A stretch of 64,000 nt of DNA from Acinetobacter sp. SFB (GTDB lineage Bacteria > Pseudomonadota > Gammaproteobacteria > Pseudomonadales > Moraxellaceae): the NCBI RefSeq assembly GCF_001647545.1, contig NZ_LSZH01000017.1:1-64000 (forward strand), written 5' to 3'. Position 1 is the first letter of the stretch; each line of letters opens with the position of its first letter. The notes beneath the pieces are model-generated. The model worked only from the letters and a program-made list of their open reading frames with translations. It was not told the DNA's origin and searched no databases. Below are positions 6,261-37,186 of this stretch, piece by piece. The position numbers and the translations under genes were made by a program.

Positions 6261-7550
6261 ATGCGACGTTTATCGACCCAAGATCAAAGTTTTAAGCAAG
6301 TTTTTGCAGACTTGTTGGCTTTTGAGACTGTGAATGATCCTGAACTTTTAAAAACTGTAGACCAAATCATTGCTGATGTTCGTCAGCATGGTGATGCTCA
6401 TGTGCTTAAGCTCACACAACAGTTCGATCGACATCCAGCGCATCAGTTTTCTGAACTTGAACTTACCCAGGAACAACTCAAATCGGCTTTTGATGGTTTG
6501 GATAACGACGTTCGTGAAGCTTTAGAATTGGCTGCAAATCGGATTCGTGAATTCCACCAAGCACAAAAGCAAGAAGGTTGGACGTATGTAGATGCCTTGG
6601 GCAATACACTCGGTCAAAAAATCACACCGCTTGATCGCGTCGGGATTTATGTGCCGGGTGGCTTAGCCTCTTATCCCTCTTCAGTGCTGATGAATGCTGT
6701 ACCTGCCCATGTTGCGGGTGTCGCTGAAATTATCATGGTGGTTCCAGCTCCTAATGGCGAGTTGAATCCACTGGTATTGGCTGCAGCTTATTTGGCAGGT
6801 GTGACTCGGGTATTTACCATCGGTGGGGCACAAGCGGTAGCAGCTTTGGCATATGGTACAGAAACTGTTCCGGGCGTAGATAAAATTACCGGTCCAGGTA
6901 ACCGCTTTGTTGCAGCTGCCAAACGTGCTGTGTTTGGCCAAGTCGGTATCGACATGATTGCCGGACCTTCTGAGATTCTGGTTTATGCCGAAGGTGAAAA
7001 TAACGCGAAATGGTTGGCGATGGACCTCTTGTCTCAAGCTGAACATGATACCGTTGCTCAAGCACTATTCATTACACCCGATGAACAGCTTTTAAATGAT
7101 GTTGAGCAAGCCATTGAAGATCATCTGGCTGAATTGCCTAAAGCTGAAATTGCACGTACATCTATTGCCAATCGTGGGGCCTTGGTTTTGGTAAAAGATC
7201 GTGCCGAGGCGATTGATTTGATCAATCAAGTTGCGCCTGAACATTTAGAGCTTTGCCTGGATGAAGCACAGGAAATGGCGGAAGAAATTCGTCATGCTGG
7301 TGCAATTTTCATGGGGCGTTATACTCCTGAAGCCATTGGCGACTACTGTGCAGGACCAAATCATGTTTTGCCGACCTCGGGTACAGCACGTTTCTCATCA
7401 CCATTGGGTGTGTATGATTTCCAGAAGCGCTCAAGCTTGATCATGTGTTCGCAAGAAGGTGTGAAAACTTTAGCGAAAGCCGCGGATGTATTGGCGCAAC
7501 AAGAAAACTTGGATGCTCATGCAAGATCAGCAAGATATCGTTATCAATAA
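6261..7550 (+). CDS. hisD: Histidinol dehydrogenase HisD
   Basis: HisD oxidises L-histidinol to histidine in two NAD-dependent steps. Zinc and catalytic residues are in place: SQAEHD (Gln/His zinc ligands), VAPEHLEL (the Glu-His catalytic pair), the downstream [15 protein letters not shown] segment, and a C-terminal [10 protein letters not shown] histidine. The start at 6261 ([12 protein letters not shown]) gives 429 residues, the normal length. An in-frame ATG at 6210 adds 17 unconserved residues, and neither start has a strong ribosome-binding site. Upstream is the hisG terminator, downstream hisC after a 210-bp gap with hairpins. Confidence 0.95.
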
Positions 7551-32081: not shown

Positions 32082-33017
32082 CTAACGCTTTGTTGTATTT
32101 AATTTTTCAATAATTTCATCCAATCGTTTTACACGTTTTACTTCATCCCACAACATTTTTGCTTCGGGATAATGTTTGGACATCATGCCAATCCATTGCT
32201 TATAGCGTCCCACCATGTTGATTTCTTTTTTATAGGGACCATTTAAGAAACGGATTTGTAGGGCCAATAGTTCATCCCAGCTAATCAAAGGCTCATCTGT
32301 GTTTTTACGAATACATTGCGTGATATCCGGTGTGGTTACCGCAGCCCGGCCTATCATCAAGTCTTCACAACCGGATTCTACACGACATTGTTTGGCATCT
32401 GCATTGGTCCAAATTTCACCATTGGCAATGACATTGATTTTCAATGCTTCACGAATCGGTTGCAGCTGATCCCAAAATGCTGGTGGGGTATAACCTTCAG
32501 CTTTAGTGCGGGCATGAACGGTGACCCATGCTGCACCGGCATCTTCAATCGCATGGGCATTTTCCAGGGTAAAGTTCCGGTCCATATAGCCTAGGCGCAT
32601 TTTGGCAGAGACAGGAATATGACTGGGTACAGCATCACGCACCGCTTTGACCAGCATGTGTACCACTTCAGGTTCATCCAGCAGAACTGAACCACCACGA
32701 TGACGGTTTACCGTTTTTGCAGGGCAGCCAAAATTCATATCAATGGCAGGGGCACCCAGTTCCACCGCACGAATGGCATTGGCGGCCAGCATTTCAGGAT
32801 TATTTCCTAAAAACTGTACATGAACCGGTGTTCCAGCGGCCGTTTTACCATCGTGCAGTAATTCAGGACAGTAATTGTGATAAACATGGTCGGGCAGCAC
32901 AGAGTCCGTCACACGAATGAACTCGGTTACACACCAGTCAAAGCTGCCGACATGCGTCAATACATCACGCATAATAGGATCGGTTAAGCCTTCCATGGGC
33001 GCAAGAACAAGTTTCAA
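32082..33017 (-). CDS. dusC: tRNA-dihydrouridine(16) synthase DusC
   Basis: DusC is an FMN-dependent TIM-barrel enzyme that reduces U16 of tRNA. The 311-residue product starts MKLVLAPMEGLTDPIMRDVL and has the catalytic cysteine in DMNFGCPAKTVNRHRGG. With the TTG at 33017 as start this is Cys98, the same number as in E. coli DusC, and AGGT lies about 9 bp upstream of that TTG. Another TTG at 33035 would add six residues and lacks a ribosome-binding site. VHARTKAEGY and IANGEIW are also standard. Confidence 0.93.
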   Translation of the reverse strand: MKLVLAPMEGLTDPIMRDVLTHVGSFDWCVTEFIRVTDSVLPDHVYHNYCPELLHDGKTAAGTPVHVQFLGNNPEMLAANAIRAVELGAPAIDMNFGCPAKTVNRHRGGSVLLDEPEVVHMLVKAVRDAVPSHIPVSAKMRLGYMDRNFTLENAHAIEDAGAAWVTVHARTKAEGYTPPAFWDQLQPIREALKINVIANGEIWTNADAKQCRVESGCEDLMIGRAAVTTPDITQCIRKNTDEPLISWDELLALQIRFLNGPYKKEINMVGRYKQWIGMMSKHYPEAKMLWDEVKRVKRLDEIIEKLNTTKR

Positions 33018-33493
33018 AGTGTCAGACCTGTACAAAGAAAAACAGGGTTATACGTTTTTTTAGAGGGGATGTCTAGCTTAGGGCCTAAATTACAACAATC
33101 CACACCGGTGATTTAAGTATGTATCATTAACATAATAGCTTTCGTGTTAAAGCTTAGGATTAATTAAAGATATAAATATCATAATGATATTATAAAATCT
33201 CATTGTTGGGTTACAGCAATCCCCTAAATAAATTTCCATAAATCATGGTTATATCATGAATTCGTTTTAACGGTTTTTTATGTGGCTTTTATCATTAAAG
33301 CATCATCAAATATAGTACCTACCTATTTACTCATTAACATCAATTTAACTATTCAGCAAATAATAATCCTGAATATTCGGCCAAAAGCATACAGTTTCTC
33401 TGGTGATTATTCTTTACTAAAAAACTAAAGCAAGTTTGAGATTTATAGGTGAAAGTAAGGGAGGGCTATTGCGATAAAAATAAGGAGAAAAAA
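33018..33493. other. AT-rich divergent intergenic region
   Basis: About 475 bp between dusC and the lipoprotein dehydrogenase gene. It must contain both promoters, but no hexamer pair stands out, and no reading frame, tRNA or strong hairpin was found. A good ribosome-binding site, AAGGAG, sits at 33482-33487. Confidence 0.5.
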
Positions 33494-34864
33494 ATGTCTG
33501 CTCGATTTTTACTGCCCCTTTTACTCCCCTTAGCGGGCTCTACCATTGTATTGGCATTAACAGGATGCGCGTCATCTTCTACGTCCCCGATTACAGACAG
33601 CTATGGTCCCAGACCCCATCTGCCTGAACCCAAATCAAGTTTGTTTCCTACGGTGAATATTGCCCCGGCCAAAGGTTGGCCTGCAGGTATGATGCCGACT
33701 CCTGCTGCGGGTTTAAAAGTACAGGCCTTTGCAAAAGAACTGCAGCATCCGCGCTGGCTGTATGTATTGCCTTATGGAGACGTGCTGGTGGCTGAAACTG
33801 ATGCACCAGCTAAGCCGGACGACAGCAAGGGCATTAAAGGTAAAATCATGAAACTAGTGATGAAGCGTGCAGGATCATCGCATCCGAGTGCCAACCGCAT
33901 TAGCTTGCTCCGTGATAGCGATGGTGATGGCATGGCTGATCAAAAAACCGTATTTCTACAAAATCTAAATTCTCCGTTTGGCATGGCACTGGTCGGCAAT
34001 ACACTGTACGTGGCCAACACGGATTCCCTTATGCGTTTTCCTTACCAAGCGGGTGCTACTCAAATTACAGCAAGCGGTACGAAAGTACTGGATTTGCCGG
34101 CTGGCCCCTTAAATCATCATTGGACCAAAAATGTGATTGCTAACCCTATGGGTAGCAAACTTTATATTACGGTGGGTTCAAACAGTAACGTGGCTGAAAA
34201 TGGCCTAGATAAAGAAGCCGGTCGCGCCCTGATTATGGAGTTTGATATTGCCAGTGGCAAAGCACGTCCATTTGCGACCGGGCTACGTAATCCCAATGGA
34301 ATGGATTGGCAACCTCAAAGTGGTGCGCTATGGACAGTGGTAAATGAGCGCGATGAAATTGGCAATGACTTGGTGCCCGACTACCTGACTTCAGTCAAAG
34401 CCGGTGCTTTTTACGGTTGGCCGTATAGTTATTATGGTCAACATGTGGATACACGGGTGAAACCCCAAGACCCTGACAGGGTAGCATGTGCAATTCCGCC
34501 AGATTATGCATTGGGCAACCATACCGCATCCTTAGGTTTAGTATTTTATAATGCTCAATTAATACCACAATATCGCGATGGTGCGCTGATTGGTCAGCAT
34601 GGCTCATGGAACCGTAAACCCCATAGTGGCTATAAAGTCATTTATGTACCGTTTAAAAATGGCCAGCCTTCTGGTCAGCCACAAGATATATTGACGGGCT
34701 TTTTAAGTGAGCAAGGCGATGCCTTGGGACGGCCGGTTGGAGTGGTAGTTGATCGTGCAGGGGCTATTTTGGTGGCTGATGATGTGGGTAATATGATTTG
34801 GCGTGTATCACCTGATGGCACAACAACCAATAAAGGAGTAAGTGATGTTTCTACTGGCCAATAG
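33494..34864 (+). CDS. PQQ-dependent sugar dehydrogenase-like lipoprotein (sorbosone dehydrogenase family)
   Basis: The 456-residue protein has a lipoprotein signal ending in LALTGC (Cys25), then a six-bladed beta-propeller of the soluble glucose/sorbosone dehydrogenase type: [81 protein letters not shown], and [20 protein letters not shown]. Such enzymes oxidise sugars using PQQ with electrons passed to the respiratory chain; the substrate here is unknown. The ATG at 33494 was chosen from AAGGAG six bases upstream; a GTG at 33449 adds a hydrophilic, unlikely N-terminus. Its last codons overlap a small frame at 34845. Confidence 0.87.
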
Positions 34865-34946
34865 TGAGCGAGTTCATAGCCTTATTGCACAAAAACTGCT
34901 AACAATCATTAACAAAGCAGTGAGTGACTCATTTTTTAAAAGCTAG
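34845..34946 (+). CDS. Small 33-codon frame overlapping the dehydrogenase end
   Basis: An ATG with an ideal ribosome-binding site (AAAGGAG, six bases upstream) starts inside the last codons of the lipoprotein dehydrogenase and runs for 33 codons: [19 protein letters not shown] and so on, ending DSFFKS. The overlap and strong site look like translational coupling to a second gene, but the frame stops early. It may be the stump of a longer partner lost by deletion, or a real small protein. No family is recognisable. Confidence 0.35.
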
Positions 34947-35101
34947 AGATTTGATACTAAAGAAATTTAGGCTCAAACCGTATCTTGCTAATTGGATTGG
35001 GTGAGAGCAGATTGAACAATGAGTAAACAAGATTTTCGACTCAGGCGTTCAATTCATATGTTAGCTGCTTAGCCAAGTCTTATTTAAATTTAAAATAGAG
35101 A
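34947..35101. other. Intergenic stretch, nothing recognised
   Basis: No gene or hairpin stands out between the small frame and the minus-strand small RNA candidate. Confidence 0.4.
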
Positions 35102-35132
35102 ATAAAAAACCCCGACATCCGTCGGGGTTTTT
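35102..35132 (-). terminator. Terminator of the candidate small RNA
   Basis: On the minus strand AAAAACCCCGAC, loop GGAT, GTCGGGGTTTTTT: a perfect 7-bp GC-rich core flanked by A and T tracts. The plus-strand orientation is also possible because A and T tracts lie on both sides. Confidence 0.85.
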
Positions 35133-35300
35133 CGTATTGGTGCGCTCGGTATAACTCCTGTCGTACCTTATAGTCCTTGTGCGTATCTATTATTATTCTT
35201 GTATGGAACTTCCTGTTCCTGATGAATCCATCATAGGAAATATCCGGGGAATCGCCTAGACGTAAAGGACTTGAATTGACGTAAGCAAATGCGTATAAGA
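35102..35300 (-). ncRNA. Candidate CsrA/RsmA-titrating small RNA
   Basis: Read on the minus strand, about 130 nt carry seven GGA motifs, several in loops: GATG-GATT-CATC (35221-35232), GGAAC-AGGAA-GTTCC (35205-35219), GGTA...ACAGGAG...TACC (35148-35167), unpaired CAAGGACT (near 35175), and even the terminator loop CCCCGAC-GGAT-GTCGGGG (35110-35127). A T tract ends the transcript. GGA in hairpin loops is the hallmark of CsrB/RsmZ-type RNAs that sequester CsrA. The 5' end is uncertain; no promoter was pinned down. The 79-codon open frame through this segment shows no protein family and is probably fortuitous. Confidence 0.45.
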
Positions 35301-35320
35301 TTGGCCGAAAACCACTCATT

Positions 35321-35679
35321 TTCCATAGAAATTGGGCATTCTTTCTGATTTGGATGGATTAATAACTTATTACAAAGTTTCATTCAGAATAAAGATCATC
35401 AGTTTATTGACAGTAAGATTAAATTTTTGAAGATAAAGAAGCCGACTTATTAACAAGCCAGTATTGTGCAAATGTTCCGAGTTTTAATTTATATTAAGTT
35501 AATGATATTGAATATTATTCTAGTTTAATGTGTATGGGATGAGTGCTTTAAACTTGGAATGCTCTTTAAAGTACGGATATGACAGCTAAAACCCTAAACC
35601 TAAAATCAATAGCTGAGATTTTGTAGAACATTAGTTTAAGTTCATTTAAAGCTCGTCTTAGATTTATACCTCACACTAA
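35321..35679. other. AT-rich intergenic stretch
   Basis: No coding frame, tRNA or clear repeat. The segment just right of 35300 is where the promoter of the minus-strand small RNA would be expected. Confidence 0.4.
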
Positions 35680-35704
35680 AATGCCAGTCGACCGGACTGG
35701 CATT
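35680..35704 (-). terminator. Terminator after the DUF2171 gene
   Basis: AATGCCAGTC and GACTGGCATT form a stem; on the minus strand it is followed by TTTTAG, consistent with ending the DUF2171 transcript. Confidence 0.7.
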
Positions 35705-35749
35705 GTTCAATTCAACAAATAAAGTTTATTCACTTAAAACACTAGCTTG

Positions 35750-35989
35750 CTATACGGTTTTCCATTCTTTTCTGGCATCTTCTGCACTTTTGTTCAAAAT
35801 CACATTTTCATCTTTAATTTCACTTACCCAACTGAGTGGAATAATATGATGTTCATTATTTTCATCATCACTTCTGGTCAACTTAATTGAGTCTTGACCT
35901 TCTAAATGATCTACTTTCCCTATTGTAGTACCACATGATGCAATTACTGAAGCATGTGCCTGGATGTCATTTGGATTGAAATTATTCAT
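35750..35989 (-). CDS. DUF2171 domain-containing protein
   Basis: The 79-residue protein matches the DUF2171/PRC-barrel-like pattern: ASVIASCGTTIGKVDHLEG, DSIKLTRSD, HHIIPLSWVSEI and a C-terminal SAEDARKEW. Family members are small, often stress-related, and of unknown function. The ATG is preceded by AGGTAAT on the minus strand. It stands alone in a gene-poor region. Confidence 0.85.
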   Translation of the reverse strand: MNNFNPNDIQAHASVIASCGTTIGKVDHLEGQDSIKLTRSDDENNEHHIIPLSWVSEIKDENVILNKSAEDARKEWKTV

Positions 35990-36379
35990 TATAATTACCT
36001 ATTTGTAGAAGTTGAGATGAACAGTCTACACAATAAAAAATAGGTATGTGTAAGGGTTATCAGGGTTTGAGTTTTTCTGAGTTAAGAATGTAAGTGTGAA
36101 AAAGAAATGAATATTTAATAAAAAATCAAAATTTACTTAGAGCTAAGGAACCTCAATCTGTTTGTGCGAAAGTATCCAGAGTTTAAGATAATTTACACAA
36201 ATTAAAACAGAACCTTTCCATGTTGGACTCTTATTATCTAATCATCATTGGCTTACATGCTGTTGAAAAGTCCAGCCTTTGCTGATTTGACTCTATTGAT
36301 TGATCCTTGCTTTAAGCCGGCTATTTAATCATTGTTGTTCATTTTATTAGAAAAAATCAAACAAAAGGAAATAAGGAGC
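35990..36379. other. Gene-poor intergenic stretch
   Basis: 390 bp without a supportable gene. The upstream edge must hold the DUF2171 promoter. A segment near 36160-36190 weakly resembles one near 35465-35490; the similarity is too low to call a repeat. Confidence 0.4.
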
Positions 36380-37186
36380 TTATTTCCCCAAAATCATTTC
36401 CAGTACAAATTTAGAACCAATAAAACCAATTGCCAGGAGCATAAAACCACTTAAGGTAAAGCGAATCGCTTTTTGGCCACGCCAGCCAAACTTGTAATGA
36501 CCAATCAGCAAAGATCCATAAACAAACCAGGAAATAATACTAAAGGCCGTTTTATGGGCTAAGTGTTGAGCAAAGAAATCTTCAATGGTGAAGAAACCAA
36601 AACCTAAAGCTAAGGTCAGCAAGATAAAACCAGTAATGATTAAATCAAACAACAAAGATTCCATGGCTTGGAATGAAGGCAGTAAATTGACCCAGATTCT
36701 TTTTTGCTTGTTTTTTAATTCACGATTTTGGAACCATAGAATTACCGCTTGTATGGTGGCCATCAGTAGAACCGCATAGGCCGATAAAGACAAAATAATA
36801 TGAATGTCCAAACCCAAGGAGTGCTGTTCAATCACCTGATTTTGTTTGCTTAAGGCAAAACCTAAAATCAAGCCGGTCGCAGCAACAGGAATGCCCAATA
36901 AATTGAGGGCCAAAATGGGGCGGTAAGTACTAAAGATTAAACTCAGCAATAACATCAGACCAGAGGTAAATGACAGCAACAGGAAGACATCATAATTTAC
37001 GCCTAGAGGGGTCAGCATATCGTTATACAGAACACCCGCGTGTAGCAGTAAACCTAAACCGAGTACGAGCCCTACAAACCAATGGTTCGGATCACGCTTT
37101 GACATTAAGTGAATAAACAAATACCAGAAAGATGTGGTATAAGCGATTAATGCTAAGATCGTGTAAACCAAGGGGAGACTGATCAT
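36380..37186 (-). CDS. Cytochrome c assembly (CcsA/YpjD-like) inner-membrane protein
   Basis: The 268-residue protein has about eight hydrophobic helices and the shape of the CcsA/YpjD/CcmC-like family: VYTILALIAYTTSFWYLFIHL at the start, SLGLDIHIILSLSAYAVLLMA with a histidine, and FFAQHLAHKTAFSIISWFVYG. In E. coli the relative YpjD lies next to ffh, the same pairing as here, on opposite strands. A role in haem handling is inferred from the family. AAGGGGAG precedes the ATG. Confidence 0.87.
   Translation of the reverse strand: MISLPLVYTILALIAYTTSFWYLFIHLMSKRDPNHWFVGLVLGLGLLLHAGVLYNDMLTPLGVNYDVFLLLSFTSGLMLLLSLIFSTYRPILALNLLGIPVAATGLILGFALSKQNQVIEQHSLGLDIHIILSLSAYAVLLMATIQAVILWFQNRELKNKQKRIWVNLLPSFQAMESLLFDLIITGFILLTLALGFGFFTIEDFFAQHLAHKTAFSIISWFVYGSLLIGHYKFGWRGQKAIRFTLSGFMLLAIGFIGSKFVLEMILGK

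Follow-up and report, generated by a model that had tools for sequence, protein, structure and literature searches.

A candidate GacA-activated, CsrA-binding RNA family of Acinetobacter and its association with dif modules

What does a short, GGA-rich stretch between the dus and ccsA genes of Acinetobacter sp. SFB encode? The window studied here is a stretch of 64,000 nucleotides at the start of contig NZ_LSZH01000017.1. On its minus strand, the region from 35102 to 35300 contains seven GGA triplets, starting at 35245, 35229, 35219, 35213, 35176, 35158, and 35120. A preliminary description, which had counted the same seven, proposed an RNA that titrates CsrA and has the architecture of RsmX, RsmY, and RsmZ. 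Conserved hairpin loops, covariation, a GacA-type box, and an overlapping reading frame that is closed in most copies support that proposal, and the observation as a whole was partly confirmed. We consider it very probable, judging from these features, that the window RNA is a GacA-activated CsrA decoy of the RsmX/Y/Z kind, belonging to a multicopy mobile family. Its predicted parts and surroundings are as follows.

35104 to 35224, minus strand: predicted CsrA-decoy sRNA of about 121 nt, its start placed from the -10 element to within a few nucleotides; the covariance model matches the same positions with 128.4 bits, this copy being one of the model's 32 rows
35280 to 35297, minus strand: GacA-type upstream activating box, TATACG-CATTTG-CTTACG, agreeing with TGTAAG-N6-CTTACA at 9 of 12 positions
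35230 to 35235, minus strand: -10 element, TATGAT, with the box starting 62 nt upstream
35205 to 35219, minus strand: hairpin 1, GGAAC-AGGAA-GUUCC, with a GGA in its loop (in 83 of 84 copies)
35174 to 35178, minus strand: AAGGA site, in a linker here and in the loop of hairpin 2 in other copies (GGA in 82 of 84)
35148 to 35167, minus strand: hairpin 3, GGUACGACAGGAGUUAUACC, with a loop GGA (80 of 84)
35104 to 35133, minus strand: rho-independent terminator, which is hairpin 4, with loop GGAU (GGA in 81 of 84)
35298 to 35530, minus strand: leader from the expected pdif position to the GacA box, partly alignable with modules of other genomes
35531 to 35552, no strand assigned: putative decayed XerC/D (pdif) site at the expected offset, with agreement at 9 of 16 positions; suggestive only, as chance could produce it
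33036 to 36379, no strand assigned: chromosomal insertion between dus and ccsA, comprising the sRNA, a sorbosone-dehydrogenase-like gene, and a 79-aa gene
32082 to 33035: dus, named from its translation
36380 to 37186: ccsA, named from its translation

In the window, 0.35% of 199-nt stretches hold at least seven GGA triplets, and 0.48% of 121-nt stretches hold at least five. As had been described, AGGAA forms the loop of a perfect 5-bp stem (GGAAC/GUUCC, 35219 to 35205), and GGAT lies in the loop of a 13-pair terminator hairpin whose T run ends the region. This terminator is one of two terminator-like sites in the 1001 bases scanned, where shuffled sequences would lead us to expect 0.4, and the minus strand of 35100 to 35260 folds better than its shuffles (z = -3.83). 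Two of the seven GGA triplets lie upstream of the inferred start at about 35224, so that the RNA would carry five rather than seven. The first of the five sits within stem 1, and three are in hairpin loops of the minimal RNA. The GGA at 35176 lies in a linker or pairs weakly, since hairpin 2 has two non-standard pairs among its three in this copy, as seen in the alignment, its columns, and the predicted fold. The expectation of at least four GGA triplets in loops therefore holds for the family consensus but not quite for the window copy, which has three. CsrA is said to prefer the form A-N-GGA, of which the window copy has two; 415 of 1000 shuffles equalled that number, so there is no enrichment, which counts against the decoy reading.

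The hairpin loops are conserved. The counts given above for the four GGA sites (83, 82, 80, and 81) refer to 84 distinct full-length copies drawn from the top matches, the arrays, and eight plasmids, and in the family alignment the four sites are fixed and the linkers vary. Covariance modelling with 32 copies found changes on both sides at 12 of 26 pairs, against a mean of 5.1 for shuffles. In the same copies 96.9% of the cells of the 26-pair structure are paired, compared with 33.0 to 48.5% when the structure is slid along the alignment; the structure has an advantage here, as part of it came from this very alignment. Hairpin 2 was added by hand; it is the weakest of the hairpins, at 87%, and does not form in the window copy. 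In predicted folds containing 427 GGA triplets, GGA is more often unpaired than other triplets (0.72 versus 0.47).

The region had otherwise been called gene-free, and codon-level conservation of a 79-codon frame had been named as a sign of selection for a protein. We found no conserved gene there, and the frame is not generally kept. The idea that 35080 to 35319 is a small protein gene gains something from the frame being open in the window and in 23 of 193 copies over the whole span between box and terminator, including L002, L005, L006, L008, and L010 and several of the copies closest to that of the window, and from the 61 to 68% identity that tblastn gives for frame-keeping copies. In the other 170 of the 193 copies the frame is closed, many homologues have stops or frame changes, the linkers differ in length by non-multiples of three, and the terminator is located within the frame. 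We find a protein-coding function barely credible.

The preliminary description also suggested looking for a GacA-type site upstream, and one is present: 78 of the 84 copies agree with TGTAAG-N6-CTTACA at 10 or more of 12 positions. The agreement is complete in 5 copies, 9 of 12 in five others including that of the window, and 6 of 12 in one. Position 2 of the box is G in 82 of 84 copies; the window copy has a rare A. Of the 59 copies with a recognizable TATNAT (25 have none by that pattern), 55 have a distance of exactly 62 nt from the start of the box down to the -10 element. From the position of the -10 element, the Acinetobacter box would be centered near -65. The part of a published report that deals with the rsmY and rsmZ promoters gives the same consensus as the sequence bound by GacA there, at -75 and -196 (PMC4950607). 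A scan for the sigma-70 consensus found no promoter at the window copy, which thus has no good -35 element. The window copy may be a weakened member of the family, given its 9 of 12 box, its broken hairpin 2, and a terminator loop that is short by one base.

The host has the corresponding proteins. The window's genome contains one csrA, whose 85-aa product scores 91.8 bits against PF02599 and matches solved CsrA chains, and a single GacA/UvrY-like gene (268 bits, where the cut-off of the UvrY model is 280 and the next best gene scores 82). Both csrA and a gacA-like gene were found in all 19 genomes of the genus tested, including five that lack a match to the model described below. Those features of a Csr/Rsm decoy that can be tested on sequence were thus found, namely the GGA sites, the GacA box, an apparently non-coding transcript unit with a terminator, and a host with CsrA and GacA. 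For A. baumannii, the relevant passages report that CsrA is essential on rich medium (PMC12802169) and that GacSA is a global regulator (PMC5295007); the passages on CsrA and GacSA in these two papers name no RNA that links both in Acinetobacter. GacA is also described as directly binding other A. baumannii promoters, so it need not work solely through such RNAs, and in the same account GacS/A is required for efficient conjugation of pAB3 (PMC10746170). A paper on A. baylyi includes a CsrB-like RNA in the network that it infers and, in the section concerned, refers for it to a general prediction paper (PMC12442408). A. baylyi carries a copy of the present family (L148).

We infer transcription of the window copy, its activation by GacA, binding and titration of CsrA, and Xer-driven movement, in the following way. 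Phosphorylated GacA, bound to the 18-bp box some 65 nt ahead of the start, would activate a promoter that has a -10 element but no good -35 element. The RNA of about 120 nt would then display its four conserved GGA sites, most of them in hairpin loops and the last in the terminator loop. CsrA dimers binding these sites would be withdrawn from their mRNA targets, turning on functions that CsrA represses. XerC/D dif modules would spread copies between plasmids and chromosomes, so that plasmids could raise the dose of the decoy.

How widespread is the family? A DNA search found relatives in 55 of 96 genomes, usually with several per genome. The window's genus, represented by 60 genomes including the window's own, accounts for 54 of the 55, and one belongs elsewhere. 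Among the matches listed, 78 of 80 loci are named Acinetobacter; the other two come from a Moraxellaceae bin and from a bin named Kurthia, which is perhaps misbinned. The covariance model, built from 32 non-redundant copies, bore out conservation across the genus: at E <= 0.001, and with weak matches included, 144 of the 149 genomes of Acinetobacter have a match. These genomes have 1 to 15 matches each, and the window's genome has 11. In 119 genomes of the taxonomic family, 26 of which are listed as Acinetobacter, the model gave weak matches in 15 genomes of other genera, with a maximum of 37.9 bits versus 139.9 within Acinetobacter. In one genome two members lie about 135 nt apart on one strand (G257:C1:3091782-3092175).

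The family is not obligatory: the five of 149 Acinetobacter genomes without a model match have kept both csrA and a gacA-like gene. A linked loss of gacA or csrA in these five was sought and not found. Other GGA-rich stretches occur behind exact GacA boxes in G050 and G113, as well as in G168, which has one weak match. No convincing GGA-rich stretch was seen behind exact boxes in G026 and G184, and a search of G032 gave no exact box.

The search for exact boxes covered eight genomes, and further GGA-rich stretches lie behind some of them. One RNA-like locus behind an exact GacA-type box (G000:C11:428810 onward; L227:1501-1760) has 11 GGA triplets in 230 nt and is even richer in GGA than the window family. 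It has matches in 52 of the 60 genomes of the genus, usually at one place. There is one match in 45 genomes, some of these being short, and two in 7, of which six represent pieces of one place and one a 27-base piece. The presence of a second GGA-rich locus behind a GacA box indicates that the wiring recurs in the genus. This locus may encode the genus's core decoy RNA, and from its map distance to the array it could be ABUWs074 of A. baumannii AB5075. We also observed, in two genomes, two GacA-type boxes 424 to 439 bp apart (L221/L224 at G000:C11:325854 and 326278, and L220 in G168:C20). After one of the two boxes there are RNA-like stretches with a common AGTTTTGGGAGAGACT hairpin, and both loci give Rfam matches to the S15 leader just below threshold.

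Is the family mobile? BLAST returned 373 plasmid records, of which 354 are from Acinetobacter, some of the low-ranking ones being short matches. Spread to plasmids of Klebsiella, Raoultella, and Enterobacter (19 records) was considered and set aside: the three Klebsiella records examined match only about 50 bases at the terminator end and are for that reason not counted as family. Plasmid copies were sampled as one stretch from each of 16 records, 8 picked from the spread and best lists and 8 from the spread list, and scanned with a motif that we take to represent XerC/D (pdif-like) sites. Each of the 17 copies on the 16 stretches is preceded by such a site, always in one orientation, at a distance of 226 to 263 nt from the model start; the model start itself lies about 3 nt before the box. 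The RNA gene is thus, at the level of the family, dif-module cargo.

The same relationship is seen in a wider set. Among 192 distinct copies with enough flanking sequence (the last eight plasmids being left out), 49 have a site at -275 to -225, all in one orientation and none in the opposite one. In that interval the reversed motif and 50 shuffled motifs gave no matches, and random 50-nt stretches of the loci collected gave 26 in 4540. In a later set, 58 of 202 copies have the upstream site. For 8 of the 58, a second site in opposite orientation follows no more than 30 nt past the end of the RNA, closing modules of 488 to 509 bp; for another 24 it lies 60 to 1400 nt downstream, making 32 of 58 within 1.4 kb. 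For the remaining 26 the second site was not found or the edge of the locus was reached. For three of the eight closed modules the plasmid stretch is annotated, and the annotation shows no gene within them; the longest frames in the eight are 50 to 116 codons. Other modules combine the RNA with toxin-antitoxin or other genes. The site is 29 nt before the model start, instead of about 250, at five loci (L186, L187, L158, L161, and L182). A small plasmid that is typed as conjugative and carries blaOXA-72, pAbCTX9, has two divergent copies (L082:3944-4138 and 7315-7512).

The same RNA and box also occur in chromosomal arrays, with three copies in arrays such as those of A. nosocomialis (L093, L130), A. 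pittii (L156), and A. calcoaceticus (L088). Parsimony on a tree of 206 copies gave 31 changes of pdif association, at least 10 of them forced by well-supported branches, where shuffling gave a mean of 54.5. The tree is poorly resolved (82 of 203 inner branches are open) and therefore supports only that the association changed more than once.

Two other functions come to mind for an RNA carried in this way. It could be a passive part of the module that does not act on CsrA, its promoter and terminator forming a block to insulate cargo or to help Xer recombination. The near-fixed distance of the RNA from, and its single orientation to, the pdif-like site would fit this, as would the 8 of 58 modules that close within 30 nt of its end. 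However, the chromosomal arrays keep RNA and box with no XerC/D-like site at the usual place (one array copy, L065, has a site at -160), and the conserved loops and the covariation of the internal hairpins point to a function of the RNA itself. A purely passive role seems to us very unlikely.

The second is a base-pairing RNA, antisense or otherwise trans-acting, either C4-like or concerned with plasmid copy control or incompatibility, in which the GGA loops would be seeds. Plasmid copies are sometimes within 2 to 3 kb of repM, purine-rich loops are able to pair with pyrimidine-rich mRNA, and the passages on Group 1 of Weiss and coworkers describe a large, multicopy C4-like family in Acinetobacter whose target loop is the variable part (PMC5320573). 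Here the arrangement is the opposite, with fixed GGA sites and variable linkers. Neither the window nor the 18 other loci searched gave an Rfam C4 match, and identity with C4 was rejected. The copies adjoin many different genes, on plasmids and chromosomes, and a GacA box suits a decoy more than it suits copy control. We think base-pairing with a target unlikely to be the function, and return to the CsrA decoy.

How did the window copy come to lie between dus and ccsA? These genes adjoin in three of the genomes compared (G007, G008, and G010). In G011 they are separated by a pdif-sRNA-pdif module. Of the 38 genomes searched, G018 matches best (its ccsA is 94% identical); the equivalent chromosomal place there has a one-mismatch site, then an sRNA copy, and then the sorbosone-dehydrogenase-like gene that the window also has. 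In the further ccsA loci compared, dus was not within reach. The sRNA copy of G018 is only 76% identical to that of the window, so replacement or rapid change is possible. No XerC/D site with three or fewer mismatches was found in the neighborhood of the window copy. The 9 of 16 remnant at 35531 to 35552 can be aligned with a plasmid site and with those of G018 and G011, but chance matches as good or better occur elsewhere in the 600 nt upstream, the best being 12 of 16 at -204. We infer that the window copy is an old chromosomal dif module with decayed sites. In four genomes (L275:2441, L276:4426, L277:3227, and L278:875) a dif-like site lies about 155 to 185 bp from the ccsA 3' end, which suggests that this is a chromosomal entry point for dif modules.

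We lean slightly toward the view that plasmid dif modules of about 0.5 kb yield a GacA-triggered CsrA decoy, by which plasmids would plug into a host sensor and relieve CsrA repression. If so, that relief would touch host metabolism, stress tolerance, and perhaps plasmid transfer; an RNA that decoys a protein would travel as mobile cargo and let plasmids adjust a host regulator; and the large and variable number of decoy genes in the genus would be a footprint of plasmid traffic. The family would fill the missing RNA link between GacSA and CsrA in Acinetobacter, and it could assign a function to repeated transcripts that lack one. Among the top-ranked matches in the open-licence literature, no title or abstract opening describes such RNAs in Acinetobacter, and an earlier mention is possible. 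As far as these searches reach, the Acinetobacter family, its copy number, and its carriage by dif modules are new.

Among known systems, RsmX, RsmY, and RsmZ of Pseudomonas are the nearest, sharing the upstream box TGTAAG-N6-CTTACA, several GGA hairpins, and a terminator. RsmY is also alike in length (121 positions in its model, against about 120 nt here). In a 501-base search of the window, RsmY (RF00195) had the lowest E-value (2.6e-4) of 24 matches at E <= 10. Its score of 25.6 bits is below the gathering threshold of 57, as is the best score, 31.5 bits at L024, and 4 of 18 other loci have sub-threshold matches. By that threshold the Acinetobacter RNA is not a member of the Rfam RsmY family. 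No Rfam family passed its threshold in the window; the matches to MicC, rimP, BSnc120, and others fall mainly on the terminator and were set aside. The Pseudomonas RNAs differ in that the Acinetobacter family has 1 to 15 model matches per genome and is carried by plasmids beside pdif-like sites. CsrB and CsrC of the enterobacteria have the repeat motif CAGGA(U/A/C)G, which occurs at least twice in 77 of the 84 Acinetobacter copies. The Acinetobacter RNA is shorter than these, has four conserved sites, and has no Rfam sequence match to them.

A further comparison is with the repeated transcripts of A. baumannii AB5075. Taking its chromosome to be about 3.97 Mb long, we place ABUWs083 about 346 kb from ABUWs005 on the same strand. 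Members of our family in two single-contig or near-complete genomes (G250 and G246) are 101 to 105 kb and 347 to 350 kb apart on one strand. In the parts of the 2016 paper by Weiss that deal with repeated transcripts, there are six groups, of which Group 3 (ABUWs005, 061, 081, and 083) is 128 to 147 nt long, expressed, and without an assigned function, and ABUWs081 and 083 are 97.8 kb apart on the same strand (PMC5320573). Spacing and strand fit three of these four sRNAs as mapped there, ABUWs061 not being placed. The Group 3 transcripts may be this family, although the map position on which this is based is circumstantial. Those parts of the paper link Group 3 to neither CsrA, GacA, nor dif modules. 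The Group 1 C4 antisense RNAs of the same account are likewise multicopy Acinetobacter sRNAs and differ in that the present family matches no C4 model.

In pdif modules, opposite XerC/D sites bracket the cargo, and plasmid and chromosome have modules in common, as set out in the relevant passages of PMC12907356. The modules in the corresponding parts of that paper and of PMC6449649 and PMC13141974 are described by their protein genes, and we found no description of an RNA module in them. The eight closed modules reported here, unlike those, have room for little beyond the RNA and its leader. A known case of plasmid interference with the host Gac/Rsm layer is RsmQ, which the portion of the report concerned with it describes as a plasmid-encoded RNA-binding protein of the CsrA family (PMC9928087). 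In Acinetobacter it is instead a predicted decoy RNA that the plasmids carry.
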